Shown here one piece after another: positions 690-15,705 of a stretch of DNA of 34,948 nucleotides; the stretch's first letter is position 1, and every line of letters starts with the position of its first letter. The stretch is from the NCBI GenBank assembly GCA_014304875.1, contig JACRUD010000031.1, positions 1-34,948 of the forward strand, written 5' to 3'. The stretch comes from Vulcanimicrobiota bacterium. GTDB taxonomy: Bacteria > Vulcanimicrobiota > Vulcanimicrobiia > Eremiobacterales > Eremiobacteraceae. The notes below the pieces were generated by a model. The model was not told where the DNA came from and did no database searches. It saw only the letters and a list, made by a program, of their open reading frames with translations. A program made the translations under genes and the position numbers.

Positions 690-794
690 CTCGGATCCAT
701 GCTCCATCCGACATGGTTGCTACTCTAGCGCGCCATTATCAAAAACCGGACTCCCCGCCAACGCATTAGCTATGCTTCGCTAGCAGGGCAGCAA

Positions 795-823: not shown

Positions 824-957
824 AGAAAACTCTATTACACATCAGCGTACTACATAAAGGAAAGTTTTCAAGTGCCGAAGTCTCCCCGGCTGTGCTGCGG
901 TCGGATCTACCACGGCCGCCGCACGGCGGCTGCTTATCATCAGTGGGGGAGATGGCC

Positions 958-1365
958 ATGCGAAAACAAGCGCCTCGCTTTCAGTCGATGGACAAAGACC
1001 ACCTCAACGCGGTGTCTGGCTACTGGCTCCAACGCATGCTCGGCGATGACATCCCGCCGTACGACATCGGATCGGCCGGCGGCGCGCAGCTCGTCTTCAA
1101 GGGCATGAAGTCTGAAGAGCTGGACGCATCACCGGACTTTTGGTTCTACCTCGGCTTTGAGTTCGCGCTAGACGTTGTGGGCGCGATCTGCGCGCATCCG
1201 CTCGGCGACCCGACGCCGGCGATACTCAAAGCGAGGTACCGGACACGCAGAGACATTCGCGATTCGCAGATGAACGTCATCAAGCGCCGGCCGCTGACAA
1301 CACTGGAGAATGAGCACTTGTGCGAGCTTGAGGACGCGTTCAACAACGAGTCACTTGATGGCTAG
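958..1365 (+). CDS. hypothetical protein, phage-like region
   Basis: I placed the start at ATG 958 because GGGGAG at 946-951 sits 6 nt upstream; ATGs at 952 and 892 have no usable ribosome site. The 135-aa product (MRKQAPRFQSMDKDHLN...) is soluble, moderately charged, has 'YWLQRM' and 'FWFYLGFEFALDVVGAIC' aromatic segments, and ends in an acidic helix. I do not recognise a family. Its stop (1363-1365) overlaps the ATG of the next gene at 1358, so the two are probably co-translated. It starts a new series of tightly packed small genes after the terminator at 795-823. Confidence 0.55.
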   Translation: MRKQAPRFQSMDKDHLNAVSGYWLQRMLGDDIPPYDIGSAGGAQLVFKGMKSEELDASPDFWFYLGFEFALDVVGAICAHPLGDPTPAILKARYRTRRDIRDSQMNVIKRRPLTTLENEHLCELEDAFNNESLDG

Positions 1366-1732
1366 CGGTTCACAGCGAAGCGCATCGGACAGGGAGCTGA
1401 CAGACCGGGCGGCGGAGCGGCTGGCGAACATAGCCGCCCATCTAATCGAGCATCCTCTCCAGAGCGTTGCCGAAGCGACGAGAGCCGATCCGCTTGCGCC
1501 GATCCAAACAGCGACGCGCAGCTCGGCGTCCATGCGCCAAGCCTTCGAAGCGGCACCGCAACTGCTCAACGTCCGCGAGACCGCGGCTCTGCTGCGGATA
1601 CATCTGCAGTCCGTTTATGCGCTGATCCACGCGCGACGCCTAGCGGCGATTCGCCCCGGCGGCATGAGACGATGGCTCGTGCCAAAACAAGCGGTCCAAA
1701 ACATGCTAACGCGCTCGGCCCCTTCTGGCTAG
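1358..1732 (+). CDS. excisionase/MerR-type helix-turn-helix protein
   Basis: This 124-aa protein starts at ATG 1358, overlapping the previous stop by 8 nt. The N-terminal half is low in recognisable features. The C-terminal ~55 residues read 'LLNVRETAALLRIHLQSVYA', then 'LIHARRLAAIRPGGMRRWLV', then 'PKQAV'. This is the usual layout of the HTH_17 excisionase/DNA-binding domain: helix, turn, recognition helix, basic wing, closing helix. Such proteins direct phage or integrative-element excision or act as small regulators. Its presence in a run of short overlapping genes fits an excisionase or regulator of the element. No integrase lies next to it. Confidence 0.6.
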   Translation: MASGSQRSASDRELTDRAAERLANIAAHLIEHPLQSVAEATRADPLAPIQTATRSSASMRQAFEAAPQLLNVRETAALLRIHLQSVYALIHARRLAAIRPGGMRRWLVPKQAVQNMLTRSAPSG

Positions 1733-1947
1733 AAGATGGCCGCCGCGTGCAGACCGTCATCGCTAAATGCATGCGCTCGATCGACGACATCCAAAAAGAC
1801 CTCGACCGCATAAAACAGGCCCTACGGCTCGTTAACCGGGTCGCGAGCCTAGATGTTGCCCTGGGCACGGAAAATGGCTCCCAGGGGCCTCCCAGCGCAA
1901 TTGAGGACACCTTCCGCTTCGATGAGCTCTTAGCGGAGGGTAGCTAA
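1672..1947 (+). CDS. small coiled-coil hypothetical protein
   Basis: The 91-aa product has a heptad-like stretch, 'SIDDIQKDLDRIKQALRLV', in the middle and an acidic C-terminus. It overlaps the end of the HTH gene by 61 nt if ATG 1672 is used. A shorter form starting inside the gene is possible, since GC bias at third codon positions improves only after about 1705. Its TAA (1945-1947) shares an A with the ATG of the next gene. Function unknown; the length and coiled coil fit an accessory phage protein. Confidence 0.45.
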   Translation: MARAKTSGPKHANALGPFWLEDGRRVQTVIAKCMRSIDDIQKDLDRIKQALRLVNRVASLDVALGTENGSQGPPSAIEDTFRFDELLAEGS

Positions 1948-2252
1948 TGGCCGTCCTCGCCCTGCGCGATAGCGGCCGGCGGCGCCGCCAAGCGACTAGG
2001 GTCCTGGCCGGAGATCCGTGGGCGCAGGCGCTGAACCGCTTTATGCACCATGCGCGCGAGAAATGGGGCTGGAGCGATGGGCAGCCATGGAGCTACCAGA
2101 TGTGGGCGGTCTGGTTCGCGCTCAATCGCCACCACAAGATGCTGCCCAACGTCTGTGATCGATTGGAGCACCGCATGAATATGGCCAAGATGCAAGGCCT
2201 GAGCGCCGACCAGTTCGACGTGCAGCTGCGGACGCCGCAGGTGCCCGCATGA
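1947..2252 (+). CDS. hypothetical protein, phage-like region
   Basis: This 101-aa protein has an Arg-rich N-terminus (residues 10-19), a Trp-rich centre ('EKWGWSDGQPWSYQMWAVWF') and an amphipathic C-terminus. I do not recognise the family. It is coupled on both sides: TAATG with the gene before and ATGA with the one after, which strongly supports it as a real gene despite its size. Confidence 0.55.
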   Translation: MAVLALRDSGRRRRQATRVLAGDPWAQALNRFMHHAREKWGWSDGQPWSYQMWAVWFALNRHHKMLPNVCDRLEHRMNMAKMQGLSADQFDVQLRTPQVPA

Positions 2253-2422
2253 CGCCGCTGCGCCCGCGCCTGGACGAGCCGTTCGACTGGGGCGATGACG
2301 CCTCGCACGTGTACGAGACACGCACGTCCCAGCCGCACGGCCCGGAAGGCTACGGCATGCTGATGGCGCTCGCCGTCACCATCGCCTGCCTGGCGCTGCT
2401 GCTTTTGCTGTGGCCGCGATGA
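2249..2422 (+). CDS. tiny membrane protein with one C-terminal span
   Basis: The 57-aa product has a polar, acidic N-terminal 35 residues followed by 'MLMALAVTIACLALLLLLW' and a final Pro-Arg. This is a single membrane helix at the very C-terminus, so the N-terminus is likely cytoplasmic or tail-anchored. It starts with an ATGA overlap at 2249 and ends in an ATGA overlap at 2419-2422. The layout would fit a small phage membrane protein, such as a lysis accessory, but nothing here proves that role. Confidence 0.55.
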   Translation: MTPLRPRLDEPFDWGDDASHVYETRTSQPHGPEGYGMLMALAVTIACLALLLLLWPR

Positions 2423-2820
2423 GCACTGACCTGCTAGACCTAGCCGCCGCGCGGGCGCTGGTGGAATCAAAAGCTACCGAAGAAGGCCTGGATGCTTTCT
2501 ACCTCGCTGCGCCTGCGCTACTCCTCATGATGGCCGACCGCCTCGAAGCCTGCCGTGCGCTGGCGCGGGAGTGGTGCAACGCATCAGATGGCCGTTACTA
2601 CTCTGGCGTAGCCCTACGCGACGCGCTAGCTCTAGCGGAGGAGCGCCAAACGTCGGCCACTGAGCCTGTGCCACCTTACGACCAGATTAAGCCGCCTGCA
2701 GGTTGGGCCGATGACCACAGCGCGTTTTTGAAGGCAGCGCGGGACCGCCCTGACTTATTGGCGGCGTACCAACGCATCATAGCGCGGGCGCTGGCTCTAG
2801 CGCCAGGGGAGAAGCCATGA
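2419..2820 (+). CDS. hypothetical protein, phage-like region
   Basis: I start this 133-aa protein at ATG 2419, inside the ATGA junction with the preceding gene; an ATG at 2410 is in frame but lies within the upstream gene. The product is Ala-rich and helical ('LDLAAARALVESKATEEG', 'LLLMMADRLEACRALAREW'), with a Pro-rich linker near residues 83-95 and a second helical part. No family recognised. Its TGA (2818-2820) is followed in the same frame by an open stretch with strong third-position GC bias to 3003. Confidence 0.5.
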   Translation: MSTDLLDLAAARALVESKATEEGLDAFYLAAPALLLMMADRLEACRALAREWCNASDGRYYSGVALRDALALAEERQTSATEPVPPYDQIKPPAGWADDHSAFLKAARDRPDLLAAYQRIIARALALAPGEKP

Positions 2821-2862
2821 GCCGCCTCTACCGCCGCTACCAGCATCACCAGCCTGTACGTC

Positions 2863-3003
2863 GTGCGCCGCACCGCCCTCCCGCGCCGTACGGCCTGCCA
2901 TGCCTACGATGCAAACGACAACTCCGTGCCGGTGCAGATGACCGCCGCGGGCGCGATCATCTACAGCCACAGCGCCGTGCGCTTTTACTGCGGTGCGCCG
3001 TGA
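2863..3003 (+). CDS. possible small gene or read-through extension
   Basis: The frame of the preceding gene stays open after its TGA from 2821 to a TGA at 3001-3003, and third codon positions are almost all G or C throughout. The peptide ends '...VPVQMTAAGAIIYSHSAVRF' then YCGAP. The only plausible initiators are GTG 2863 (46 aa) or internal GTG/ATG codons, none with a clear ribosome site. The stop overlaps a GTG at 3000 (GTGA), which suits a real upstream neighbour. It could be a separate small gene, a TGA read-through extension, or chance; the competing frame from ATG 2817 overlaps it completely. Confidence 0.3.
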   Translation: MRRTALPRRTACHAYDANDNSVPVQMTAAGAIIYSHSAVRFYCGAP

Positions 3004-3206
3004 GGAGCGAGGAGGTAGCCGAGGCGGTGTGCCTGCTAACTAACGGCGGTAAGGACAGAGTGCTTATCCAACACTTTGTAACGCCTTCGGGCAAGCACGA
3101 CCCGCTACGATGCTTGCGTTGCGAACTGCAACCGGAACTAAACCGCGATTTGCTCGGCACGCCAGGTTGGGCGCCTGCGCCCAACGGCAAGGTCATGCCC
3201 GACTGA
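3000..3206 (+). CDS. small CxxC hypothetical protein
   Basis: Starting at GTG 3000 the product is 68 aa, with a CLRCE pair near residue 38 that could bind zinc and a Pro-rich tail. The same frame also opens at ATG 2817 (129 aa), which has a second CLRCK pair and an ATGA overlap with the gene before. Codon bias for 2821-2999 favours the other frame, so I prefer the short form, but the long form is a real alternative. The TGA at 3204-3206 overlaps the next ATG (TGATG). Confidence 0.45.
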   Translation: MRSEEVAEAVCLLTNGGKDRVLIQHFVTPSGKHDPLRCLRCELQPELNRDLLGTPGWAPAPNGKVMPD

Positions 3207-3385
3207 TGAAAACCGGCCTGAGAGCGCTGTTCACCCGCGACTTCTGGCGCGACGCGCTTGCCCCGCACGATGGGCGCAAGCGCGGCTCGTGTATCGCTTG
3301 TGGGGCAGCGGTGTTCGGCCTGCCGTTCGACGACTGCATGTTCTGTGTCGGCTGCGCCAAGGACAACGGGGAGGACCCCGCGTGA
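3206..3385 (+). CDS. small zinc-ribbon-like protein
   Basis: The 59-aa product starts at ATG 3206 (TGATG junction). It has a basic N-terminus followed by CIACG and CMFCVGC, four to five cysteines spaced as in a small treble-clef or zinc-ribbon fold. Such proteins are common in phage genomes as nucleic-acid or protein-binding adaptors. The stop lies in a GTGA overlap with the next gene. Function not determinable. Confidence 0.5.
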   Translation: MKTGLRALFTRDFWRDALAPHDGRKRGSCIACGAAVFGLPFDDCMFCVGCAKDNGEDPA

Positions 3386-3573
3386 ACGACGCCCTCGCGC
3401 GCGCCCTCAAGCAGCATGGCAGCATCCGCATCGGCGGACGTCGGCTGCGCTGCAAACAAAACGTCTCGCCGCACGACCCGCAGCCGTACGTCGGGCGCAG
3501 ATGGCTGCAAGCGAACTGCATCGAACAGCGCGGCTGCGTGTTTGTGCTCGTCAGAGGTGATTTGCCCCGGTAA
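3382..3573 (+). CDS. small basic hypothetical protein
   Basis: This 63-aa protein is translated from GTG 3382 in a GTGA overlap. It contains 'SIRIGGRRLRC' and 'GRRWLQANC', is strongly basic, and has three cysteines. It is the last member of the overlapping series that starts at 1358. A nucleic-acid-binding role would suit the charge, but no family is recognised. Confidence 0.45.
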   Translation: MNDALARALKQHGSIRIGGRRLRCKQNVSPHDPQPYVGRRWLQANCIEQRGCVFVLVRGDLPR

Positions 3574-3587
3574 TCACGCCGGGCATT

Positions 3588-3610
3588 TTCTCCATCTACC
3601 GGAGAAGGGG
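3588..3610 (+). promoter_or_regulatory. hairpin overlapping a strong ribosome-binding site
   Basis: TTCTCC (3588-3593) pairs perfectly with GGAGAA (3601-3606) across a 7-nt loop, and two G-U pairs could extend it. The right arm is part of the GGAGAAGGGG Shine-Dalgarno run that serves ATG 3617. Folding would therefore hide the ribosome site of the downstream gene. The pairing is seen in the sequence; regulation is inferred. Confidence 0.4.
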
Positions 3611-3616
3611 AACCCC

Positions 3617-4081
3617 ATGAACAGATCGGCCTTCCTAAGCGCGTCGGCAGGCGCCGCCGCCATACCGCTGCTCGGCCTGCCTAAAATGGCAAGCGCCGAT
3701 ACCTACGTCGGTCTGTCACAGATCGGCTCGAAAATCTACCATATATCCGACAGCCAATACAAAGTCGTCGATCCGGTCGGACGCATCTTCTACTTCACGA
3801 CCAATAGCCCGCGTACGTTCAACGGGTACAGAGATACCATCATCAATCAATGCTCGGCCGACCGCATCGAATACCATCAACATGTCTGGGACTTCGCGAT
3901 TGCCACGGGGGAAATCGTCGCGGCCGCCGGTGCGGCTTTGACCGGCGTCGTGATAACCGGAGGCATGGGGACGTTTTTCGCGGGCCTTGGCCTGACCGTC
4001 ATGTACGTGAATTGGTTGCATCAGGACGCCAATATGGCGACCGCTTACGGCAACATGAATGTAGCGTGCGGCAATGGCTAA
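3617..4081 (+). CDS. secreted or membrane small protein with signal peptide
   Basis: The start at ATG 3617 is set by GGAGAAGGGG at 3601-3610. The 154-aa product begins with a signal peptide (MNRSAFLSASAGAAAIPLL..., cleavage probably after ASA near residue 28). A polar Tyr/Ser/Asn-rich middle follows, then a Gly/Ala-rich hydrophobic segment (about residues 102-132, including 'GAALTGVVITGGMGTFFAGL'), and a short Asn/Met/Gly tail with a final cysteine. The architecture would fit an exported toxin, a small bacteriocin-like protein or a holin-like membrane protein, but I recognise no family. Its stop overlaps the next tiny gene. Confidence 0.55.
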   Translation: MNRSAFLSASAGAAAIPLLGLPKMASADTYVGLSQIGSKIYHISDSQYKVVDPVGRIFYFTTNSPRTFNGYRDTIINQCSADRIEYHQHVWDFAIATGEIVAAAGAALTGVVITGGMGTFFAGLGLTVMYVNWLHQDANMATAYGNMNVACGNG

Positions 4082-4169
4082 CGGGTGGCTAGACCTCTCT
4101 GGAATAGCGCTGATCTGTTTCGCTGCCGCGATTTGGATTAGCAACGTCCGAAAGAACCGCGTTAAATAA
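4074..4169 (+). CDS. 31-aa single-span membrane protein
   Basis: ATG 4074 overlaps the stop of the secreted-protein gene. The peptide has a short polar start, a hydrophobic core 'IALICFAAAIWI' and a basic end (SNVRKNRVK), so it should insert with a cytoplasmic basic tail. Immediately downstream is a strong hairpin. A partner of the exported protein upstream (immunity or lysis helper) is a reasonable guess only. Confidence 0.45.
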   Translation: MANGWLDLSGIALICFAAAIWISNVRKNRVK

Positions 4170-4175
4170 ACAATA

Positions 4176-4208
4176 CGGCCGGGGCGGTATCTAGCACCGC
4201 TCCGGCCG
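4176..4208 (+). terminator. strong hairpin closing the phage-like gene run
   Basis: CGGCCGGGGCGGT (4176-4188) pairs with ACCGCTCCGGCCG (4196-4208): 13 pairs including one G-U, with a 7-nt loop. No T-run follows, so it may be a rho-dependent or structure-only terminator. It lies 6 nt after the last stop of the gene series. Confidence 0.55.
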
Positions 4209-4301
4209 CACCATCTCAAGTCGCGGAGGGCCGGCCCGCTCCCTCTAGTACGTAGCGGGATATCACAGGTGACCGTGGCGCCGGCACTACCCGGCGGATA
4301 G

Positions 4302-4466
4302 TTGCAAGGGAGAGACTGTGCGCCGCATGAGATCCTCTCCAGATCCGCAAGCCGTCCAGATGTCGTTGTCTCGGAGATCATCATGTCACCGATGGATGGT
4401 TACGAGCTGTCCCGCGAGATCAAAAATAATCGGGCGACAGTCGTGCCTAGGCTGTTGACGGAGTGA
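4302..4466 (+). pseudogene. fragment of a response-regulator receiver domain
   Basis: The open frame after TAG 4299 ends at TGA 4464-4466. Its peptide contains 'SRPDVVVSEIIMSPMDGYEL' followed by SREIKNN and ...VVPRLLTE. This is the middle of a CheY-like receiver: beta-3 with the phospho-acceptor loop, helix 3 with MDGYEL, and the start of beta-4 (VPxxLLT). The normal phospho-acceptor Asp (usually LDIMMP) reads Glu (SEIIMSP). Only about 55 residues remain and both ends of the domain are missing, so it is a decayed remnant. Its last bases overlap the convergent gene at 4447. An ATG at 4383 could express 27 residues, which is unlikely to be functional. Confidence 0.45.
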
Positions 4467-5277
4467 TTGAGGGATCAGTTTCGCGCGCGACGAGTCTTCG
4501 ATCGACAAGACGCAGCCAATCGGGATGCCAGATAAGCCCGCATGAGCTGTGGCATGGGCCGCGACGTCCGAGGACAGCGCCGCTGCATTGCAGGCCGCGT
4601 AATACGTACCAGTGGGCACGCGGCAACCTTGTGCTACAGGCCTCTTGCACGCTGTCGATTGTCTTGAGTATGGGAAATCGCCGGTCAGCAAACTGTGCCA
4701 TTTCCGGCATAAACATCAACCCATCACGGCCGCCGCCTGCGTCGAGCGTGGCGCGAATGTCGGCGACGGATCGAACTGTAGCGTGTCTCGTGTTTGCTTG
4801 ATACGGGATATCTCGAGCCTCTTCATTCGTCGCCTCCAGCCAGTCATCTCGAAAGAAAAGCGCGCAGGCGCGGCCGCATCCCACTGTGCCGCTAATTCCA
4901 GCGCAAGTCACGTTCTCCAGTATCACAGTGCCGGCAGGGGATCGTATCACGCCAGACTTCTCCATGATGCGCCGCACTTGCTTTGAGACGCGTTGTATGG
5001 TGCCACAGTAGGACCACTGCGGCTCCATCCATTGCAAACCCCGCAGGCGGCCCTTCTCGTCGAGCGTGTTTTCTATCGCAGCGCGATCCTTGACGCGTAC
5101 CATCTGGCCGACCACAAAGGCTGACGGATTGCCCAGTCCTGGGGCACGTGTGTGCGAGCGCAGGCTGTGAAAGAGTGTCCTGAATCCAGGCAGAGCCTGT
5201 ACCGTACGCCGAACTTGTTCAGTAAGGGGCCATTGACCCAGCCGGTTTTGGTGCTGGCAGAGCTGACGGAGTGGCAT
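4447..5277 (-). CDS. uncharacterised protein with tandemly duplicated Cys-rich domain
   Basis: The 276-aa protein carries two copies of one ~90-residue domain. Copy 1 is residues ~57-148 (start VGQMVRVKDRAAIENTLDEK, then C125, C134, C138 before FFRDDWLEA). Copy 2 is residues ~167-257 (start TVRSVADIRATLDAGGGRDG, 'LMFMPEMAQF', then C231, C242, C246 before IWHPDWL). Each has the order VRS..I..TLD..G...GL.(F/W)MPE, then a C-x(8-10)-C-x3-C block and a Trp. I recall this pattern from a widespread single-domain family of unknown function, often near polysaccharide or natural-product genes; a metal or cluster role for the Cys is inference. The start is supported by AGGAAG 7 nt upstream and a promoter ending ~25 nt upstream. 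The gene is alone on its strand. Confidence 0.6.
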   Translation of the reverse strand: MPLRQLCQHQNRLGQWPLTEQVRRTVQALPGFRTLFHSLRSHTRAPGLGNPSAFVVGQMVRVKDRAAIENTLDEKGRLRGLQWMEPQWSYCGTIQRVSKQVRRIMEKSGVIRSPAGTVILENVTCAGISGTVGCGRACALFFRDDWLEATNEEARDIPYQANTRHATVRSVADIRATLDAGGGRDGLMFMPEMAQFADRRFPILKTIDSVQEACSTRLPRAHWYVLRGLQCSGAVLGRRGPCHSSCGLIWHPDWLRLVDRRLVARETDPSITPSTA

Positions 5278-5301
5278 ACAACATCTTCCTAGGGTTTCGG
5301 T

Positions 5302-5331
5302 ATCCTACACCTTTCTGGCTCGTTAAAACAA
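5302..5331 (-). promoter_or_regulatory. sigma-70-type promoter for the Cys-domain gene
   Basis: Read on the minus strand it has TTGTTT (5331-5326), an 18-nt spacer and TAGGAT (5307-5302). The -10 box is about 25 nt before ATG 5277, leaving a short leader. The flanking sequence resembles the promoter at 10724-10751, which uses the same TAGGAT box. Confidence 0.45.
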
Positions 5332-5618
5332 TCGTCAGTCGCTGTGGTCATCTCGACCGGCGTGCGTTTGGGGAAGCGGAGTTGCTAAGTTCTCCCGACC
5401 ACGGTCGAACGGCGGCATGTAAGCTAAGTAGAAGGCTTCACAAATTTCATACTTATTCTTCCACCCTACAGCGCGCCTACCTACGCGACAACAGGCTAGG
5501 GTCCTAGCACGTGATATGACTCCAAAGCGAAATTGCTAGCGGCTTAGGTCGTATGACTTGGGGACATACTTCAGGGACCTTTGGGACGTTTGGCGTCTAT
5601 CGAAATGGCGGTAAAAGT

Positions 5619-5647
5619 GTGCCATAGCGTCAGCGCCGCAATATAAA
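5619..5647 (+). promoter_or_regulatory. candidate promoter for the 62-aa gene
   Basis: GTGCCA (5619-5624; four of six matches to the -35 consensus), a 17-nt spacer, then TATAAA (5642-5647). The next gene starts at 5690, giving a leader of about 35 nt. Confidence 0.4.
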
Positions 5648-5689
5648 GCAGCGTGGATGTTGTTTTCAATTAATCTGAAGGATCGTAAT

Positions 5690-5878
5690 ATGAAGACATT
5701 ATCGCAAGCACTGGCCGAAGGGTGGAAAGTATGTCTCCCGGTCAAGCGCTTCTCGCCTGATTTGAGCTTGATTCTGATCGAGCGCAATCGCACCGAAGAG
5801 TGGTTTGAAGCTGGATTCGCGCGAATGGACGTGAGCGTCCCGATCAACGCGATCATTCCTGATCTCGTTGCGGTTTAA
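5690..5878 (+). CDS. small hypothetical protein, paralog of 11038-11199
   Basis: The start is ATG 5690 with AAGGA about 7 nt upstream. The 62-aa product begins MKTLSQALAEGWKVCLPVKR and continues with SLILIERN, then FEAGFARMD. The gene at 11038 encodes MQTVSQAKVDGWQPLLPIQR, SVILVARN, then NEIGFARVD: the same sequence of blocks, so the two are clearly related. The alternating hydrophobic strands suggest a compact beta-rich fold. No function is recognised. It has its own promoter-like sequence and sits inside the element scar region. Confidence 0.55.
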   Translation: MKTLSQALAEGWKVCLPVKRFSPDLSLILIERNRTEEWFEAGFARMDVSVPINAIIPDLVAV

Positions 5879-5952
5879 CAATATGATGATGCACTACCCT
5901 CAAAACGCGGCACGGCATTGAACGTGCTCGAAAGCCTTTGGGGGTGAAGACT

Positions 5953-6122
5953 CGCTCATAACGCCTACCTCGACAAAGCGTTAGCGTCGCTGGACCGCAA
6001 CTCTTGGGACCTCCGCTACTGTGGAAACCCGACAGGCCAGGCTACCATTGCGTTGACGGGTTACAACCTTCCGCCCGTCGCGCGGTTGGGGCGAAAGCGG
6101 AAAGAGCTCTGGCCCCACCGCG
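5953..6122 (+). repeat. coding-type diverged repeat, copy 1 (DLxYCGN)
   Basis: The stretch translates without stops as ...LDRNSWDLRYCGNPTGQATI then ALTGYNLPP, following an in-frame TGA near 5949. A second copy at 6966-7100 reads RDLGYCGNQVGQATMCLMG. DNA identity is highest over about 45 bp from GGGACCTC (6006), and several differences are synonymous (GGA/GGG, AAC/AAT, ACC/ACT), the mark of a once-coding sequence. No start codon with a ribosome site precedes it, so I treat it as a relic. Confidence 0.4.
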
Positions 6123-6157
6123 TTTGCACCGATTCTATCCGGTCACGCGCTGAGCGG

Positions 6158-6298
6158 TCACTTCTCCTGGAACCACGTATACGGACAGCCGCCGTCGTAG
6201 CCCAACGCCGAACAGTGGCCGTCTCGATGCAAATGCCGGCCGTGGCCGCAGTTCAGGCACGGCTGCTCGGGTCCGGTGATCCGCTCCTCGTCACTCAT
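6158..6298 (-). CDS. 46-aa Cys/His zinc-binding-type protein
   Basis: The minus strand encodes MSDEERITGPEQPCLNCGHG, RHLHRDGHC, SALGYDGGCPY, then TWFQEK, from ATG 6298 to TGA 6160-6158. The CxxC, His and two further Cys are spaced as in the short one-zinc proteins seen in phages and Actinobacteria (CxxCGH.RHLH..GxC...GCPC type). A GAAGG sequence lies about 8 nt upstream. Codon third positions are mostly G or C. Function unknown; adaptor or nucleic-acid binding is usual for such folds. Confidence 0.5.
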   Translation of the reverse strand: MSDEERITGPEQPCLNCGHGRHLHRDGHCSALGYDGGCPYTWFQEK

Positions 6299-6453
6299 AC
6301 GGTGCGCCTTCGCGACGATCAACGTCTAATTTTTTGGTTTTGGAATTTTTTTTCGGTTCTGTCGCTGAGGACCAAGTAATAATTAGCGCGCGGCAGGGGC
6401 CGCATGGGCCTCCCCAGCCGGCATGGCGGCCGGCCGGCGACCGTCTGTTTTGT

Positions 6454-6474
6454 CAAATGGCCGTCAAATGGATT
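6454..6474. repeat. tandem direct repeat, possible integrase arm-type sites
   Basis: GTCAAATGG occurs at 6455-6463 and again at 6466-6474, 11 bp apart, about 120 bp left of the tRNA fragment. Closely spaced direct repeats beside a core site are the usual arrangement of tyrosine-integrase arm-type sites. The assignment is inference; an operator for the nearby minus-strand gene is the main alternative. Confidence 0.35.
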
Positions 6475-6589
6475 GCATTGGACAGCGTGTAGCGGCAGGT
6501 GACGCGATGGGATGAAGCCTGAGCGCAAGCCCGTACAGGACGGGGCTCCAAGGGACACCGTGTGACAGCGTGGGATGTAGCGGACCGAA

Positions 6590-6631
6590 TTTGTAAACCG
6601 TTGGTCGGGGGTTCAAATCCCTCCGTCGGCT
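6590..6631 (+). other. 3' half of tRNA-Thr(TGT), attachment-site core
   Basis: The 42 nt read as tRNA positions 32-73: anticodon loop TTTGTAA, 3' anticodon arm ACCGT, variable TGGTC, T-stem GGGGG, loop TTCAAAT, CCCTC, acceptor strand CGTCGGC and discriminator T. No CCA is encoded. The 5' flank does not pair (CGAA-side instead of ACGGT) and no GCCGACG acceptor 5' strand occurs nearby, so it is a half, not a gene. Identity beginning exactly at the anticodon loop is what an integration into a tRNA 3' end leaves at the far end of the element. Confidence 0.6.
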
Positions 6632-6716
6632 AACGAGTTATCCTTAGTTTCTAAAAGCTGCTGGTTTTGTTGGCAACATGGAGCAAGCGACGCGGCGGCG
6701 TATTGTCCTCGTAAAG

Positions 6717-6746
6717 GGAAAACGCCGCACAATCAGCGGCGTTTCC
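6717..6746 (+). terminator. hairpin downstream of the tRNA fragment
   Basis: AACGCCGC (6721-6728) pairs with GCGGCGTT (6736-6743) around a 7-nt loop, extended by A-T and followed by TTCCTCTT. It lies about 90 nt after the tRNA-Thr remnant and could be the original terminator of that tRNA transcript. Confidence 0.5.
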
Positions 6747-6965
6747 TCTTGGTTATTCGGCTGGCTTGCGTACGATGTTAGCCGGTTGTCAACGGCATGC
6801 ACTTGAACGGACATTCGGCAGGCGGGCATTACCGAAAAGGGCCGGGCGAATGGCGGCGCGCCGCATAAACGCATGAGCTCCCGGCCGGCGGCTTTTGTGC
6901 TCGCGTGGATGGTCACCGTTACGAGCAGCGGGCCGAGGGGGCCCATTCCGTCGATCTGAAAAGCC

Positions 6966-7100
6966 GTGCGGCTAAAGGACGCTAGGGACCTCGGTTACTG
7001 TGGGAATCAGGTAGGCCAGGCTACTATGTGCTTGATGGGTCTACCCTTTGACCCATCGCGCAGCGGGGCCGAACCGGAAAGCGCCAAGGCCCCATTGCGC
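6966..7100 (+). repeat. coding-type diverged repeat, copy 2 (DLxYCGN)
   Basis: The sequence encodes VRLKDARDLGYCGNQVGQAT then MCLMGLPFDP and is alignable with copy 1 at 5953-6122 over roughly 115 bp. The reading frame stays open from GTG 6966 to 7271, but the later part has poor codon bias. It lies between the two tRNA-Thr-like scars, as copy 1 lies to the left of the first, so each copy seems tied to one element end. Confidence 0.4.
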
Positions 7101-7279
7101 TGCATGCGGTCCACATTACCTGGGCGTGGTCAACGACCGCACTCGACGGCGAGTCGCACATCGACCGCGAAACCTTCGACCCCACCTGCTCCTGCTTCAG
7201 TTTCTTGGCTCGCAGCACGTGGTTGCGTTGTGAGGTCGCGGGTACAGGATGGCGCGCTACGATACGAGTAGGTACGGAG

Positions 7280-7320
7280 TCGTAAAACCGTTGATCGGGG
7301 TCTAAACGCTTTTGTCGGAT
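7280..7320 (+). other. degenerate second tRNA-Thr 3' half
   Basis: TCGTAAAACCGTTGATCGGG followed by G, TCTAAACGCTTTTGTCGGAT aligns with the exact copy at 6590-6631 at roughly two thirds of positions, including ACCGTTG, TCGGGG and GTCGG. The T-stem no longer pairs. It looks like an older scar of the same attachment site, just before the ribosome site of the TonB receptor gene. Confidence 0.4.
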
Positions 7321-7355
7321 TCGCAAAAGCGCGTGCGCTGGCATGAGGACGGTCA

Positions 7356-9782
7356 ATGCAACGTAGAGCTATACAGGCAACGCGCTGCCTCATCGGTCTG
7401 GTCTTCGGTGCCATCATCGCTTGCGGCGCGCCCGGCATCGCCGGCACGACGGGTGGGATCAGCGGGCGCGTGGTGGACGCCGAGACCAAGGTGCCCATCC
7501 CGGGCACGCGGGTCGAAGTTCGCGCAGGCTCGGGTTCAGCCGAAAGCCTGACCGATGCCAAAGGCATCTACACGTTTGTTTCGCTGTCCCCCGACACGTA
7601 TACGTTGTTTGCAAGCCGCGCCGGCTATCAGCCGTTTTCTCAAGGCGGCGTTACCGTTCAGGCGGACGTCCACCAGGTCGTCAATGTGTCGCTGATCTCG
7701 GCCATACGCACGATCGGGCGAGTCATCACTCGCCCGCGTTCGGGACTGGTGCGCCCGGGCCAAACCATAGACGTCTATTCCATAACCCCTGACACGGCCA
7801 AGGCGGCGCAACCTCTCGCGGGGCCTGGGGGCGTCGATCAGGCCTACGGCGCTCTCGCCGTGGTGCCTGGCGTGTACGTGCCCCAAGGTCAGCAAGGCTG
7901 GTATCAACCGATTTTCATCCGTGGCGGCGATCAAGATCAGATAGGCTACGAGCTCGACGGGGTGCCGGTGAACCGCTCTTATGACAATGCGCCGCAGTCG
8001 CTGCTGACGGGAATCGGACAACAAGAGCTGCAGGTGTACACGGGCGGTGCGACGGCAAGCTCCGACGGCCAGGGCATCAGCGGATACGTGAACCAGGTCG
8101 TGAAGACCGGTTCGAAGACTCCATTCGGGTCGCTGACCTACGGCTTCGGATTTCCAGCCGGATATCAAAAAGCAGGCGCCGAGTACGGGGGCGGGACGCA
8201 CGATGGACGGCTGACATATTACATCGCGGCTTCCCTCGCCGATCAATACTACCGCTATGTCGACCCGTTCAACGGCACGAGCTTAAATCGGTCCGGCTTT
8301 TTCTTCCCTTCGTTCCAGTTCACGTCGAGCGGGAATCCGATCGACCTTCCCGGCATCACTCTCGGGGCATCCGAAACACGCGACCGCGAGGCCATCGCCA
8401 ACCTGCATTACTTGCTGCCGCATCGGCGCGATAAGGGCAGCGACGACCTGCAGCTACTCCATGTCGAAAGCGACCTCAACACTTTTACGTACGGCTCGTT
8501 TCTCGACTTCGGAGGTAAAAGCACATTCGGCACCATCTTCGCCTACCCGGACCAGTACATTTACACGGGTCCGATCGGTGCGGTGCTCAACCCCTCGGCG
8601 GTGAGCCAGTACCTGTATCCGGACACGCCCGACGCGGGGCGAAGCTATCAAAGCGCGGTCAACGGCACCCTGCGTGCGGTGGCCGACAACGGCTTCAGTC
8701 TCACCAAGCTGCAGTATCAGCGGAACTTCGGGACTCGCGCGTATCTGCGCTTCGTGGGTTTCGGCTCGTACCGCGGGACCCTAGGGCAGTTCGAGAACAT
8801 CTTACTGGACGCCAGCGGCAATCAATCCGGGGTGAACATCGGCAGCGAAAGATCGATCGGCGTCGAGTTCGCATTTCAGAAGGGCGATTTCGAGCGCGAT
8901 GGGGTATCCGGGCTGGTCGCATTCACGTACAACCACAGCCGCTTTCGCTACGCGAAGTTCGCCAGCGGATTCAACGCGCTCGATCTCATCAATCATCAGA
9001 TCTCACGGTACAACGCTTACACGGCGGCCTGCGCCGCAGGGGGCAGCGCAGCGGGTGCCACGCAGTTCGGTAGTCCGCTGTGCGGCAGCACCAGCGCTGG
9101 AAGTACGGCGGGGCCGTGCTTCACGCCGGGGGGCACTCCTGAGAGCTGCGCTGCGGGCGATGTGGTAAACCCCTATTGGAATAGATCGCCGCAGGCGCTC
9201 TTGGACCCCAATGGCGACTACGTGCCTTACGACATCATTCCCGATCAGCCGCTGCAGGCGGGCAACGGTTTCGGCCAGCCGATCACGGCGACGGTGATTG
9301 GCCAGTATAAACGCCGGCGCTTTACGGTGACGCCCTCGGTCACCTACAGCTCGGGCGCATTCTACGGCGCTCCCCTTTCGACCGTCGGCGACGATCCGGC
9401 CACGAACAACACGTCCACGATTCCGATACCAAACAACTTCACCGGCAAGTTCGATAACATGGGAGCTTTCCAGCAGCCCTGGCGCCTGACCGGAAATCTG
9501 CAGCTCGGCTACGCGGTGACGCGGCGCATGCAGCTTTCGGCGGCGATGACAGGACTTTTCGACGCCTGCCATCAGCGAGGTTACGCGTGGGACCGGCCCA
9601 ACTTCTGCACGTACACGACCCTACCGTTCGGCGTCGCGCCAAACTCGAGCGCGCATGTCAGCGCGACGGGAGATGCGAACTACGAGTTTCCCTACACGGT
9701 TCAGAACGGCAACAACAACACCCAGTATCTGGGCACGAAGATCCCCTTTCAAACCTACGTGACGCTTCAGGTGAAGATGTAG
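7356..9782 (+). CDS. TonB-dependent receptor with carboxypeptidase-regulatory-like domain
   Basis: This 808-aa outer-membrane receptor has a signal peptide (residues ~1-30, ...IIACGAPGIAG). A CarboxypepD_reg-type beta-sandwich follows (~33-115: GGISGRVVDAETKVPIPGT... SDxxGxYTF..L.PDTYTL). Then come a 'DVYSITPDTAKAA' linker in the place of a TonB box, a plug (~150-255, with 'VPGVYVPQGQQGW', IRGGDQDQIGYELDGVPVNR, 'GGATASSDGQGISGYVNQVV') and a long beta-barrel rich in Tyr/Asn/Gly. A Cys-rich loop (~560-600) probably forms a surface disulfide pair. It imports an unknown substrate using TonB energy. GAGGA at 7344-7348 supports the start. No TonB, ExbB or transport partner is adjacent, so the substrate cannot be inferred. 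It shows that the cell has an outer membrane. Confidence 0.85.
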   Translation: MQRRAIQATRCLIGLVFGAIIACGAPGIAGTTGGISGRVVDAETKVPIPGTRVEVRAGSGSAESLTDAKGIYTFVSLSPDTYTLFASRAGYQPFSQGGVTVQADVHQVVNVSLISAIRTIGRVITRPRSGLVRPGQTIDVYSITPDTAKAAQPLAGPGGVDQAYGALAVVPGVYVPQGQQGWYQPIFIRGGDQDQIGYELDGVPVNRSYDNAPQSLLTGIGQQELQVYTGGATASSDGQGISGYVNQVVKTGSKTPFGSLTYGFGFPAGYQKAGAEYGGGTHDGRLTYYIAASLADQYYRYVDPFNGTSLNRSGFFFPSFQFTSSGNPIDLPGITLGASETRDREAIANLHYLLPHRRDKGSDDLQLLHVESDLNTFTYGSFLDFGGKSTFGTIFAYPDQYIYTGPIGAVLNPSAVSQYLYPDTPDAGRSYQSAVNGTLRAVADNGFSLTKLQYQRNFGTRAYLRFVGFGSYRGTLGQFENILLDASGNQSGVNIGSERSIGVEFAFQKGDFERDGVSGLVAFTYNHSRFRYAKFASGFNALDLINHQISRYNAYTAACAAGGSAAGATQFGSPLCGSTSAGSTAGPCFTPGGTPESCAAGDVVNPYWNRSPQALLDPNGDYVPYDIIPDQPLQAGNGFGQPITATVIGQYKRRRFTVTPSVTYSSGAFYGAPLSTVGDDPATNNTSTIPIPNNFTGKFDNMGAFQQPWRLTGNLQLGYAVTRRMQLSAAMTGLFDACHQRGYAWDRPNFCTYTTLPFGVAPNSSAHVSATGDANYEFPYTVQNGNNNTQYLGTKIPFQTYVTLQVKM

Positions 9783-9848
9783 GGCTTTGCCGGAACCTCG
9801 GTACATGGAGGTCACCGTCAGAGCTTGGTTCTTCGTCCCTCATTGGGT

Positions 9849-10631
9849 TCAAGGGATAAAATCCCGATGGGTTACCGAGAGATAGGTTACGAGCGCGACG
9901 ATGACGGTGAGGAACAAAGCGCTCGTGGCAGTGGTGCCAAAACCGATCCCGCCGTTTTTGTGCGTTTGCGACAGCAGGTCCCCCATTGAGGCGCCGAGCG
10001 GACGCGTCAGTATGTAGGCGATCCAGAATGCGAGAACACCATCGATATTCAAGACGAAGTAGGCAAGCGCCGTCACGGCGATAAGCGCCCCGAAGACGAG
10101 CGCCGCGGGCCCGTAGCCCAAGCCTGACGCTTCCCCGAGAAGATCGCCCGCGGACGTCCCAAGCGCAAATGTGAAAAGGATCGCCGCCCAATAAAAAAGC
10201 TCCCGCTTCGTCGTCCGAATGGAATGCACCGAGAGCGTCCGTTCGCTCCACCACCATGAAACGAACACGACCGCAAGCGCGAACGCGAAGACGATCGACG
10301 TCGTGCCGAGGCCGATGCCGAGATTATCGACGAGGTTGTCGGAGATGAGCGTGCCGACCACGCTGACAAGCACGACAACGGTCCAGTAGACCGCCGGAAC
10401 GTAGCGCCGCCTCGTCAATTGGATGCCCAGTGCCACCAGAAACAGCGCGCTCACGACCAGCGACGTTCCGTTCAGGCCAAATCCCATGCGAACGTTTAGA
10501 AAGTCGGCGGCCGTCTCACCGACGGTCGTGGCCAAGATCTTGATGACCCAAAACATGACGATGATCTGAGGCACCTTGTTGAACATCAGCCGCGCCGCAG
10601 ATGGGCCGTTCGTCTGCGCAGTCGTCGCCAT
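9849..10631 (-). CDS. COG4705-type integral membrane protein
   Basis: The 260-aa protein has about eight membrane helices built from repeated units that each contain a Gly/Asp motif: 'ILATTVGETAADFLNV', 'VVGTLISDNLVDNLGIGLGT', 'ALGTSAGDLLGEASGLGYG', 'LTRPLGASMGDLLSQTHKNG'. The repeated T.GD(L/F) signature and the KVPQI..FW.IK(I/L)LATT opening match my memory of the COG4705/DUF347-repeat family of uncharacterised membrane proteins; some members have been linked to metal handling, but that is not shown here. The paired acidic residues inside helices would suit cation transport. AGGA lies ~6 nt before ATG 10631 and a clear promoter is at 10724-10751. It is convergent with the TonB receptor gene. 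Confidence 0.75.
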   Translation of the reverse strand: MATTAQTNGPSAARLMFNKVPQIIVMFWVIKILATTVGETAADFLNVRMGFGLNGTSLVVSALFLVALGIQLTRRRYVPAVYWTVVVLVSVVGTLISDNLVDNLGIGLGTTSIVFAFALAVVFVSWWWSERTLSVHSIRTTKRELFYWAAILFTFALGTSAGDLLGEASGLGYGPAALVFGALIAVTALAYFVLNIDGVLAFWIAYILTRPLGASMGDLLSQTHKNGGIGFGTTATSALFLTVIVALVTYLSVTHRDFIP

Positions 10632-11037
10632 CTACAATCCTATCATTTCCTGAAGAGCGGTCGTTATAGCGTTGAAGGAAAGGCCGCGGTTGTTTTGTCA
10701 AGCGCTTCAAGCACGGTTCCAGTATCCTACGTCCATCGGCTAGTGTTTCAAAATCGTTACAAGAACCTTGCTTGTGTGCGGGACATAAGAAAGCGGCCGG
10801 CATGCGACGACGGCTCTCTTTGTCGACGCTCTAGCGAACGACAAAGCCGGCCATACCGCGGTCCCAACCGTCTTTAGCCAAAGGTCGGGGCTTCTGAGGA
10901 TCGGTGCAAGGCGGGTGAGGTACGCATCACATTTGAGGCAGTTCCGGACACGGCAGCTTGGCCGACGTAACATTTCTCCCAAACCCTCATCCAATGACTA
11001 TATGAGCATGGGCTATGACGCACAGAGAGGACCCGAG
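10632..11037. other. gene-less stretch with a minus-strand promoter
   Basis: About 400 bp between the divergent COG4705 gene and the 53-aa gene. It holds the promoter at 10724-10751 and an imperfect inverted pair GGCCGGC/GCCGGCC (about 10793 and 10847). Short open frames on either strand lack ribosome sites and bias. No RNA gene seen. Confidence 0.5.
10724..10751 (-). promoter_or_regulatory. sigma-70-type promoter for the COG4705 gene
   Basis: On the minus strand: TTGAAA (10751-10746), a 16-nt spacer, TAGGAT (10729-10724), then about 90 nt to ATG 10631. It is the best promoter in the window and shares its TAGGATAC box and flanks with the one at 5302-5331. Confidence 0.55.
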
Positions 11038-11199
11038 ATGCAAACGGTATCACAAGCCAAGGTCGACGGTTGGCAACCGCTTCTTCCCATCCAACGCTGC
11101 TCGCACGACCACAGTGTCATCCTCGTCGCTCGCAATCATCCCGATGCAGGCAATGAGATCGGGTTCGCGCGCGTTGACGGCAGCATGGCCGGCGGCTAA
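11038..11199 (+). CDS. small hypothetical protein, paralog of 5690-5878
   Basis: The start is ATG 11038 with AGAGAGGA about 7 nt upstream. The 53-aa product (MQTVSQAKVDGWQPLLPIQR, CSHDHSVILVARNHPDAGNE, IGFARVDGSMAGG) shares its block order with the 62-aa protein at 5690: M(K/Q)T(L/V)SQA...GW...LP(V/I)(K/Q)R, S(L/V)IL(I/V).RN, GFAR(M/V)D. It is shorter at the C-terminus. Function unknown. Two copies 5 kb apart, one in the element and one in the chromosome, suggest either a mobile small gene or a local family. Confidence 0.5.
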   Translation: MQTVSQAKVDGWQPLLPIQRCSHDHSVILVARNHPDAGNEIGFARVDGSMAGG

Positions 11200-11230
11200 G
11201 CTCGCAGCAGCAAAGCGCGTAGGCGTCTAG

Positions 11231-11412
11231 GCTCGCGCAGAATCCACGGATCAGCTCAAAGGGCCGCCGACCGACCAAATCTCTCAGCGCATCAAAAACG
11301 TCTTGCACTCCAACAAGTCTGCGTACAAAGTCGACCTTTGCGTCGAAGCGGTCCGGGCTTTGCTTGGCGCGAAAGGACCTGAAGCAACAGAAGAAAACCC
11401 ATCGGCTGCATG
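11231..11412 (+). pseudogene. coding remnant without a start, ends at the flavoprotein gene
   Basis: After a TAG at 11228 the frame stays open to TGA 11410-11412 and encodes QLKGPPTDQISQRIKNVLHS then NKSAYKVDLCVEAVRALLGA. This is a convincing helical protein tail with good codon bias but no ATG or GTG start. Its stop overlaps an ATG (11410) of the next gene in an ATGA junction. It is probably the 3' part of a broken gene; a sequencing indel that splits a longer gene is possible. Confidence 0.35.
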
Positions 11413-11424
11413 AGGGGTCGCGGT

Positions 11425-13005
11425 ATGCGGGCGAAATACGATGCTATTATCGTGGGGGCAGGCCATAACGCCCTCGTGACGGCGGCCTATCTTGCCCGGG
11501 CGAAGTGGAAAGTACTGGTCTTGGAGCGCCGCTATATCGTAGGCGGCGCGTGCGTGACCGAAGAGACGTTTCCTGGCTTCAAAGTGTCCACCGCCGCCTA
11601 CGTCAATAGTCTTTTTCGGCCAGAGATCATTCGAGATCTCCGCTTGCGCGATCACGGCTTTGAGGTCTTGGAACGTAACCCCGCGTCCTTCTCGCCCTTT
11701 ATGGACGGGCGCTATCTTCTACTGGGGGTTGACGGCCCTAGCGATAAGCGTGAAATCGCAAAGTTCAGCCGTAAAGATGCGGAGCGCTACGCAGACTACA
11801 ACGCGATGCTGGAACGGGTCGCACGCGTCGTCGAACCGACCTTAATGCAGAAACCGGCGAACGTTCTTCATCCCAGGCTGCCCGATATTCTGAGCATGGC
11901 GTCGCTGGGCGGACGGCTGCAAAAATTGGGCCTTGGCATGGGGGAGGCAATCGAAGTGCTGACAGGTCCTGCCCGCCCGATTCTCGACCGCTGGTTTGAA
12001 TCGCAGGAGCTCAAAGCCACTCTCGGTACGGACGCGATCATCGGGGCGTTCGCTGCTCCGTCGACTCCGGGAACCGCATACGTCCTGTTCCATCACGTCA
12101 TGGGAGAGACGAACGGCAAGCGCGGCGTGTGGAGCTACGTTCGTGGCGGGATGGGCGGTTTGACGCAAGCGCTGGCGAAGGCCGCCACAGATTTGGGAGC
12201 CGAGATCCGGACCGAGGCGGAGGTCTCTAAAATCTTGACCAAGCGGGGCAAAGTCACCGGAGTAGCGCTGGCCAACGGAGATGAGATCCGCGCTCCCAAA
12301 GTTGTCAGCGGCGTTGACTGCAACGTCACATTCGTGCGGCTTATGGATCCCAAAGTGGTTCCGGTCGACTTCTTAAACGCCGTCAAACGCATCGACTACA
12401 GCAGCGCTTCGCTGAAGATCAATGTCGCGCTGGCGGCGCTGCCCAACTTCAGCGCGTGTCCGGGCAGCGAGGCGGGCCCACAACATCGGGGAACCGTGCA
12501 TCTATGCCCGGACCTTGATTTCATCGAACGCGGTTTCGATGACGCCAAGTACGGGCGACCCTCAAAGGATCCGATCGTCGAGTGCACCATCCCTTCAGCC
12601 GTCGATTCCACCGTGGCGCCGCCTGGAAAACACTTGATGTCGATGTTCGTCCAATACGCGCCATATCACCTCAACAGCGGTTCGTGGCGCGATGTCAAGG
12701 AGGCGTTCGCCGACCGTTGTTTTGAGATCGTCGAGCAGTACGCACCCGGCTTTACGAGCTCGGTGATCGACCGCCAGATCCTCAGCCCCTTGGACCTTGA
12801 AGAAACCTTCAATCTAACGGGCGGTAATATTTTCCAAGGCTCCATGCCGGTGCATCAACTCTTCATGATGCGTCCGGTGCCCGGGTTCGCCGGCTATCGC
12901 ACTCCCATCAAGGGTCTATTTATGTGCGGGGCGGCAACCCATCCGGGAGGCGGGGTGATGGGCGCCTCTGGTTGGAATGCGGCCCACACCATGTTACAAG
13001 ACTGA
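11425..13005 (+). CDS. phytoene-desaturase/PYROXD2-like FAD oxidoreductase
   Basis: This 526-aa flavoprotein opens with YDAIIVGAGHNALVTAAYLA (Rossmann FAD site, GxGxxN in place of the third Gly), then ERRYIVGGACVTEE (GG doublet) and 'STAAYVNSLFRPEII'. The C-terminal FAD motif is GLFMCGAATHPGGGVMGASG. This pattern belongs to the phytoene dehydrogenase-related (CrtI/PYROXD2) branch of amine-oxidase-like flavoenzymes, whose bacterial members mostly lack known substrates. I start at ATG 11425 because GAGGGG lies 7 nt upstream; ATG 11410 adds five residues. No CrtB or other carotenoid gene is near, so a carotenoid role is unlikely. A close paralog lies tail-to-tail on the other strand, overlapping by 12 nt, beside a Rieske oxygenase. 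Confidence 0.8.
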   Translation: MRAKYDAIIVGAGHNALVTAAYLARAKWKVLVLERRYIVGGACVTEETFPGFKVSTAAYVNSLFRPEIIRDLRLRDHGFEVLERNPASFSPFMDGRYLLLGVDGPSDKREIAKFSRKDAERYADYNAMLERVARVVEPTLMQKPANVLHPRLPDILSMASLGGRLQKLGLGMGEAIEVLTGPARPILDRWFESQELKATLGTDAIIGAFAAPSTPGTAYVLFHHVMGETNGKRGVWSYVRGGMGGLTQALAKAATDLGAEIRTEAEVSKILTKRGKVTGVALANGDEIRAPKVVSGVDCNVTFVRLMDPKVVPVDFLNAVKRIDYSSASLKINVALAALPNFSACPGSEAGPQHRGTVHLCPDLDFIERGFDDAKYGRPSKDPIVECTIPSAVDSTVAPPGKHLMSMFVQYAPYHLNSGSWRDVKEAFADRCFEIVEQYAPGFTSSVIDRQILSPLDLEETFNLTGGNIFQGSMPVHQLFMMRPVPGFAGYRTPIKGLFMCGAATHPGGGVMGASGWNAAHTMLQD

Positions 13006-14538
13006 GGGCTGCGCAGACACGGAGGCCAAGTCGGCGAGCGCGGCGCGGGCGGCGCGCCAGCCCGGCGCGCCGCTGACGCAGCCCCCGGGGTGCGCACCGG
13101 ACCCGCAAAGGTAGAGGCCGGCGAGCGGCGTCCGAGTCGAAAAACGTCGGTCGAAGATTTGGCCCGGCAGCAATTCGCCGTGAAATATGTGACCGCCCCA
13201 CAGACCGAACCGCGCCTGGAGATCCGGCGGCGCCAGTATCTGTCGCGCCTCGATCGAAGCCGGAACGTTCGGAGCGAAAGGAGCAAGCGCGGCGACGACC
13301 GCGTCCGCCGCGCTCTCGCGACGCGCGTCCGTCCAGGGACCGTCCAGACGGTCGTGCGGATAGTACTGGGCGAAGATCGAAAGCAGATGTTTGCCGGGCG
13401 GCGCGATTGAGGGGTCGGTCGGCGTCTGCAAAAAGCACTCAAGCAGCGGAGCTTTCGAAACGCCACCATCTCGCGCGTCTTCGTATGCCTGCTGCAGGTA
13501 CTCCATGGACGGAGCGACGTGGATCGTGGCTCGATGGTGCGGTCCGGGCCGGCCCCTCGTAGGACGCGCAGTAAACTCCGGCAATTCGCCAAGCGCCAAG
13601 TTGACTTTAAGCGATATCCCATCGCATTGCCAACGCTGGACCCGATCAACAAAGGCCACCGGCAGCAAGCTGGGGCGCACCAAGCCTAAGAATGTGGTCT
13701 TGGGGTCGGCGTTCGAAAGAACGCAGCGCGCCCGCAATTCAGAGCCGTCGTCTAAGGCGACGCCAACGGCTCGCTCGCCGTCGTCCAGCAAATGAGTGAC
13801 GTTGCAACCGGTCCGGATCTCGGCTCCCGCCGCTGCGGCGGCGCCGGCAATCGCGCGGGAAACAGTTCCCATGCCGCCCCGGACGTAGCCCCACGCGCCC
13901 TGCCGGCCAAACGCTCTTCCTGCGTAGTGATGCGCTAGAACGTAGGCGGTACCCGGCGTGCGTGGGCCGGCATACGTGCCGATCAAACCGTCCGTCGCGA
14001 TCGCGGCTTGCAACACTGGCGTCTCGATGTAGCCTTCGACCAGATCGGCTGCAGAGCGGCAATAGTCTGCGGCCATCACGCGCGCCGCCGTCGCGAGCTC
14101 GCCGTCGGGCAGCAGCAGAGCGTCGAAGACGGAGGCCCCCAGACGCGAAATCTCGCGATCAAGAAGCTTGAAGCCCTCGATATCGCGCCGACAGAATGCG
14201 CCGATCTCGCGCGCATTGTCCTGCGCGCTGGACGAAAGAAGAAGCGCCCGGCCATCGGCGAGCGGCGTAAACGTGGCCGGATCCTTGATGTATGCATCGT
14301 ATCCGAACGCCTTTAGATTCAACTCCTCGATGATGCGCGGATGCAAAAGGCTGCAGACGTACGATGCGGTCGAAACCGTCCAGCCGGACCAAACGGCTTC
14401 GCTCGCGGCGGCACCGCCTGCCATGCTCCGACGCTCCAAAACCACGGTCTTGTGACCCGCGCGAGCCATATACGCCGCGCAAACCAGTCCGTTATGACCG
14501 CCGCCTATGACGATCGCGTCGTGGCTGGAGGCCTTCAC
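12994..14538 (-). CDS. second phytoene-desaturase/PYROXD2-like FAD oxidoreductase
   Basis: From GTG 14538 (GTGA overlap with the Rieske gene stop) the product is 514 aa. It opens HDAIVIGGGHNGLVCAAYMA, has 'ERRSMAGGAAASEAVWSGW' and 'TVSTASYVCSLLHPRI', and ends with GLYLCGSGAHPGGCVSGAPG. It is collinear with the flavoprotein at 11425-13005 over its whole length (shared 'GTAYVL.HH', 'WGYVRGGMG', 'APPGKHL.S.FAQY'), so the two arose by duplication. A longer reading frame reaches 14754, but it would lie inside the Rieske gene. The overlap with the Rieske gene implies one mRNA and a shared pathway: oxygenation followed by flavin-dependent oxidation is a natural order, though unproven. Confidence 0.8.
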   Translation of the reverse strand: MKASSHDAIVIGGGHNGLVCAAYMARAGHKTVVLERRSMAGGAAASEAVWSGWTVSTASYVCSLLHPRIIEELNLKAFGYDAYIKDPATFTPLADGRALLLSSSAQDNAREIGAFCRRDIEGFKLLDREISRLGASVFDALLLPDGELATAARVMAADYCRSAADLVEGYIETPVLQAAIATDGLIGTYAGPRTPGTAYVLAHHYAGRAFGRQGAWGYVRGGMGTVSRAIAGAAAAAGAEIRTGCNVTHLLDDGERAVGVALDDGSELRARCVLSNADPKTTFLGLVRPSLLPVAFVDRVQRWQCDGISLKVNLALGELPEFTARPTRGRPGPHHRATIHVAPSMEYLQQAYEDARDGGVSKAPLLECFLQTPTDPSIAPPGKHLLSIFAQYYPHDRLDGPWTDARRESAADAVVAALAPFAPNVPASIEARQILAPPDLQARFGLWGGHIFHGELLPGQIFDRRFSTRTPLAGLYLCGSGAHPGGCVSGAPGWRAARAALADLASVSAQPSVL

Positions 14539-15703: not shown

Positions 15704-15705
15704 TC

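Follow-up and report, generated by a model that had tools for sequence, protein, structure and literature searches.

A 42-nt piece of a tRNA-Thr(TGT) gene in a Vulcanimicrobiota bacterium is best explained as the attR of an element that a tyrosine integrase inserted into the anticodon loop of that gene, where an earlier, related element had apparently integrated before it; we estimate the probability of this reading at about 0.88. The window, i.e. the whole stretch of DNA analysed (34,948 nt), is the complete contig C109 of MAG G000 (2.49 Mb, 211 contigs, 92.9% complete), and the contig begins at window position 1, inside the element. The fragment, TTTGTAAACCGTTGGTCGGGGGTTCAAATCCCTCCGTCGGCT, lies at positions 6590–6631 on the plus strand and corresponds to positions 32–73 of tRNA-Thr(TGT), a stretch that begins in the anticodon loop and ends with the discriminator base. 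With up to 3 mismatches allowed, the window contains no other match, and none of 100 dinucleotide shuffles yielded one. When the fragment was compared with the 3′ 42 nt of intact tRNA-Thr(TGT) genes called by ARAGORN in ten relatives, 0–3 mismatches were observed, and the gene of relative G009 was identical (42/42); it is to this gene, rather than to one of the MAG's own, that the displaced fragment was matched as an identical gene end. To the left of position 32, the window reads ...ggaccgaaTTTGTAA and the intact genes read ...gcggTTTTGTAA, with identity beginning exactly at position 32, and comparison with the intact genes of the relatives revealed no tRNA 5′ half ahead of 6590–6631. The first-pass annotation, which had recognised an exact 3′ half lacking its 5′ half at this place, was correct on this point. 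ARAGORN detected no tRNA gene in the whole window, and an Rfam search of positions 5000–9000 (E ≤ 10) gave no tRNA match, as expected for half a gene; the sole match of that search, a weak one to an sRNA, was dismissed as chance.

The ancestral arrangement of the locus is preserved in relatives. In nine genomes of the same family, counted as those carrying both the tRNA and the Lrp/KamA genes on one contig, tRNA-Thr(TGT), an Lrp/AsnC regulator gene and a gene for a lysine-2,3-aminomutase-like radical SAM enzyme (KamA) occur on the same strand and in the same order. The window carries both of these ancestral neighbours on the plus strand, the Lrp/AsnC gene directly downstream of the tRNA in this family (15706–16218; 64–78% protein identity to the relatives' orthologues) and kamA (16242–17630; 76–81%). 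Among named records, those with close relatives of this KamA come almost without exception from Candidatus Eremiobacterota, from which the organism is assigned to that phylum. The tRNA-to-Lrp gap is short in G005 (95 bp), G006 (88 bp) and G008 (183 bp), and these gaps hold none of the 9.07 kb that separate the displaced half from the start of Lrp in the window. It is long in G013 (2.4 kb), G009 (4.5 kb), G002 (7.2 kb), G012 (7.5 kb), G007 (9.7 kb) and G003 (15.5 kb), and measures approximately 0.6 kb in an additional Eremiobacterota record; in sister families, the tRNA is absent from the Lrp–KamA locus. The comparison with genomes lacking the element, which had been suggested as a check, thus uncovered an empty site in three relatives (88–183 bp). 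Since the gap ranges from 88 bp to 15.5 kb, the tRNA-Thr(TGT)–Lrp site is a hot spot where insertions have repeatedly brought in genes within this one family, and the window represents one of its occupied states. In G010 (L067, contig C73), an intact tRNA-Thr(TGT) gene (13402–13475, minus strand) is accompanied by a second exact 3′ half (8860–8901) on the same strand, 4.5 kb downstream. No integrase was recognised in the interval between them when its ORFs were read by eye, which indicates that such halves can outlive an integrase or arise otherwise. From the same ORF reading, the genes between the intact tRNA and the half look like membrane transporters.

The missing end of the window element has a counterpart in a sister element of the same MAG. 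Contig C113 is collinear with window positions 812–1718 (plus strand; C113:4–910, 77% identity), a segment that includes an HTH_17/excisionase-like gene (about 1310–1732), and with positions 5988–6408 (plus strand; 86% over 422 bp), which form a right-end block common to both elements. Approximately 660 bp after the second collinear block, C113 carries an exact 53-nt 3′ part of tRNA-Leu(TAA) (positions 32–84 of the 84-nt gene). Contig C182 carries the intact tRNA-Leu(TAA) gene followed by a tyrosine integrase gene (PF00589, 9e-24; phrog_1, 8e-64), together with a Cro/C1-type repressor-like gene, an excisionase-like HTH gene and a DUF3631 gene. The sister element thus has a regenerated tRNA, an integrase and a displaced half, distributed over two contigs that probably belong together, as judged from their common tRNA rather than from continuous sequence. 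Its anatomy is what the window element would be expected to show if the contig did not end. In both cases, the fragment becomes identical to its gene at, or immediately beside, the 5′ edge of the anticodon loop, and the crossover of the window element accordingly appears to lie at that edge; anticodon-loop crossovers are among the sublocations described previously (PMC4383910). Because the sister has the complete anatomy and its right-end block is 86% identical, the half at 6590 is interpreted as the scar that a tyrosine-integrase element left at its distal end (attR). The empty locus in relatives and the sister with both of its ends bear out the proposal that the half was displaced to the end of an element integrated in a tRNA gene.

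Positions 1–6589 are therefore regarded as the right-hand part of the younger element, on the basis of its collinearity with C113; its left part and integrase would be located beyond the contig end. No PF00589 match was detected on C109, which does not contain the end that adjoins the regenerated tRNA. In a comparison with 20 relatives, positions 1–6589 gave a single weak match of 59 bp. The HTH_17/excisionase-like gene is the only recognisable one in this part of the element. The DNA to the left of the half had been described as phage-like, a description that the results do not support: a search for capsid, portal, terminase, tail or lysis genes found no match to PHROGs structural or packaging families (E ≤ 0.01) among ten window proteins or the proteins of the sister, the left part of the window element being missing from this comparison, and IMG/VR held no relatives of a 203-aa window protein or of an 876-aa sister protein. 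A careful name for it is an integrative element of unknown transfer mode. Two copies of GTCAAATGG, 11 bp apart, are located at 6452–6471 (plus strand), approximately 118–138 bp to the left of the crossover; the window contains just one other pair of 9-mer direct repeats lying this close together. Similarly, two copies of TTGCCCAC at a distance of 12 bp are found inside each end of the sister element. All of these pairs are candidate arm-type integrase sites. Small related proteins are encoded at 5690–5878 in the younger element and at 11038–11199 in the older interval (48% identity over 50 aa), with a third copy at C163:765–911.

Beyond the half, a diverged second copy of the right-end block was found at 6979–7094 on the plus strand (75% identity to 6000–6117 and 76% to C113:5510–5621; E = 1e-11), with an alignment score of 54.5 against 22.5 or less in 200 shuffles. 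About 190 bp past this copy, positions 7285–7319 (plus strand) match the tRNA-Thr(TGT) 3′ half locally over about 35 nt with one gap, and probably represent its decayed copy at the end of an older element. By itself, this match is marginal. Shuffling its own 725 bp reached the score in 5 of 2000 cases, shuffling the 9-kb interval in 5 of 300 and shuffling the whole window, with both strands considered, in 3 of 100; on the forward strand, the match scored 31, compared with best scores of 20–26 in the comparable intervals of six relatives, where no similar decayed half was found. Its placement after the second block copy supports its identification as a decayed half. The suggestion in the first-pass annotation that 6632–7280 is the relic of an older element at the same site has accordingly gained a block copy in the order and strand of the younger end, and its tRNA remnant stays marginal when taken alone. 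Another candidate for an element end, at 6719–6782, was rejected because it resembles C129:75–137 (85%), a hairpin or terminator downstream of a sigma-factor-like gene.

A doubtful alternative is a single insertion, in which the match at 7285–7319 would be fortuitous and the block at 6979–7094 a local duplication of a piece of the element. The 3 hits in 100 whole-window shuffles are compatible with it, as is the lack of any integrase remnant in 6632–15705 in a tblastn search with the sister integrase. However, the block and the tRNA-like copy share the order and strand of the younger end, which makes an older related insertion the better reading, and the score at 7285–7319 exceeds those of the six comparable intervals. 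Furthermore, beyond the displaced tRNA-Leu half of the sister, the sequence is similar to the left end of this element family, a similarity reached in 0 of 2000 shuffles, and the stacking of elements on older relics may thus be recurrent; the corresponding comparison of window positions 6632–6760 with the left end of the sister gave nothing above chance. We consider the older related insertion likely, with less firmness than the attR itself, and prefer it over a single insertion by about two to one.

The MAG contains some 42 tRNA genes apart from the fragment, and none of its 211 contigs yielded an intact tRNA-Thr(TGT) gene or a second copy of the 42-nt 3′ half at up to 3 mismatches. Two candidates for the missing gene were discarded: the tRNA-Thr gene on C18 has the anticodon CGT rather than TGT, and an orphan 5′ half on C137, considered as the missing end, also belongs to Thr(CGT). 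tRNA-Thr(TGT) is required for reading ACA codons. Since no other such gene is present in the MAG, an intact copy is to be expected, most likely among the sequences that were not assembled. The flanks upstream of tRNA-Thr(TGT) in the relatives have no common gene order and therefore gave no lead to the left flank in the MAG. The fragmentation into 211 contigs and the missing intact gene are also what would be seen if the window were an assembly chimera, in which unrelated contigs were joined at a 42-nt repeat and the half were simply the 3′ end of the unassembled intact gene; an exact repeat of this length can mislead short-k assemblers or short-read joins. Nevertheless, even a wrong join would presuppose that the 42-mer occurs twice and hence that the 3′ half had been duplicated. 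The sister element, moreover, displays the same anatomy in independent sequence, and to the right of the junction lies a diverged version of the end block of this very element, a feature not expected of a random join. We therefore regard a chimera as very unlikely.

The ancestral chromosome does not resume at 7320, a point that the first-pass annotation missed. Because the ancestral neighbour of the tRNA is the Lrp gene at 15706, the interval from 7321 to 15.7 kb is not ancestral at this locus either. It contains a TonB-dependent receptor-like gene (7356–9782, plus strand), whose orthologues lie elsewhere in relatives, and two FAD-dependent amine-oxidase/phytoene-desaturase-like genes with a Rieske ring-hydroxylating oxygenase alpha gene (11410–15650); homologues of the amine-oxidase/desaturase-like pair are located on other contigs in relatives. 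At 808 aa, the TonB-dependent receptor-like protein is missing approximately 350 aa from the central region that its nearest orthologues in G008 and G001 (about 1160 aa) possess, and its reading frame contains no stop codon, the difference being an in-frame internal deletion or an assembly collapse. The TonB and desaturase genes may have arrived with older islands or through rearrangement. That relatives carry their homologues at other places indicates that rearrangement or transfer did occur nearby, and would also suit an explanation in which chromosomal genes moved here without an integrase and cut the tRNA gene. A random break, however, would not be expected to hit the anticodon loop, as is seen also in the tRNA-Leu fragment of the sister, and would not destroy an essential tRNA in the absence of a second copy, so that we consider this explanation the least probable of all, marginally below a chimera.

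Integration by a tyrosine integrase, as proposed here, would proceed as follows. The element would enter tRNA-Thr(TGT) through recombination in the anticodon loop, and its own copy of the 3′ half (positions 32–73) would rebuild the tRNA gene at the left end, off the contig, where the integrase would also reside. The original 3′ half would thereby be pushed to the right end of the element, now at 6590, with window positions 1–6589 as the element's right part. An earlier related element would have used the same gene before, leaving the right-end block at 6979–7094 and the decayed half at 7285–7319.

Elements at tRNA genes are not confined to these two cases in the MAG. Among its 14 PF00589 matches, several adjoin tRNA genes, and integrase genes or fragments were found beside tRNA genes for Ala(TGC) on C171, Thr(CGT) on C18, Pro(GGG) on C17, Val(GAC) on C196, Leu(TAA) on C182, Gln(TTG) on C13, Ala(CGC) on C112 and Ile(GAT) on C100, which is many tRNA-borne elements for a 2.5-Mb genome. 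Orphan 5′ halves were found for tRNA-Thr(CGT) (L158, C137, about 369–406, minus strand), tRNA-Val(CAC) (L125, C150, 3902–3941, minus strand) and tRNA-Ile(GAT) (L092, C100, 285–327, plus strand), the last with its upstream flank duplicated too. All three stop at the 3′ side of the anticodon loop or shortly past it, and three in one genome are unusual, since only 159 of the 3919 islands in Islander are listed with 5′ fragments (PMC4383910). On C81 (L126), an exact 28-nt 3′ tail of tRNA-Gly(CCC), from the T-arm to the end (1869–1896, minus strand), adjoins an integrase match at 2079–2612 (minus strand), and C81:5003–5102 resembles window positions 6181–6280 (82%). Tentatively, these elements could form a mosaic family with common end blocks and segments, which would acquire different tRNA targets (Thr-TGT, Leu-TAA and perhaps Gly-CCC) by swapping integrase modules and stack on their own relics, although we think this rather doubtful. 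If it holds, then, together with the orphan 5′ halves, elements in a single genome would be cutting tRNA genes from either side of the anticodon loop.

In a phylum that is represented almost exclusively by metagenomes, the window fixes exactly where an integrative element ends, and places recurrent gene gain in one Eremiobacterota family at the tRNA-Thr(TGT)–Lrp gap. The sister pair at tRNA-Thr and tRNA-Leu, with its common ends, could serve the study of integrase target choice. Displaced tRNA fragments are established end marks of tyrosine-integrase islands (PMC4383910; PMC9897764), and both the anticodon-loop sublocation and tandem arrays, of which Islander lists 125 at single tRNA genes, have been described (PMC4383910). 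With the tRNA islands of Hudson, Lau and Williams (PMC4383910), the elements of this MAG share the displaced 3′ fragment, the anticodon-loop crossover and the tyrosine integrases beside tRNA genes; the window element differs in that its regenerated gene and integrase lie off the contig, its gene content is almost all unknown and its host phylum, Eremiobacterota/Vulcanimicrobiota, is little studied. As in tandem islands, there are two tRNA 3′ copies and two end-block copies in the same order and strand, but the older member is a remnant of less than 700 bp with no integrase, and an array defined by a separate tRNA fragment and integrase for every member would not include it. In PYG1, at tRNA-Gln(TTG) of Pyrococcus yayanosii, partial and complete tRNA copies likewise flank the island, and its 44-bp repeat compares with 42–53 bp in the MAG elements (PMC9897764); that host is an archaeon, whereas the MAG is a bacterium in which one of the two ends is unassembled. 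Thus, the kind of element is known and the mechanism is that of textbooks, and what is new is this member, in a poorly studied phylum.
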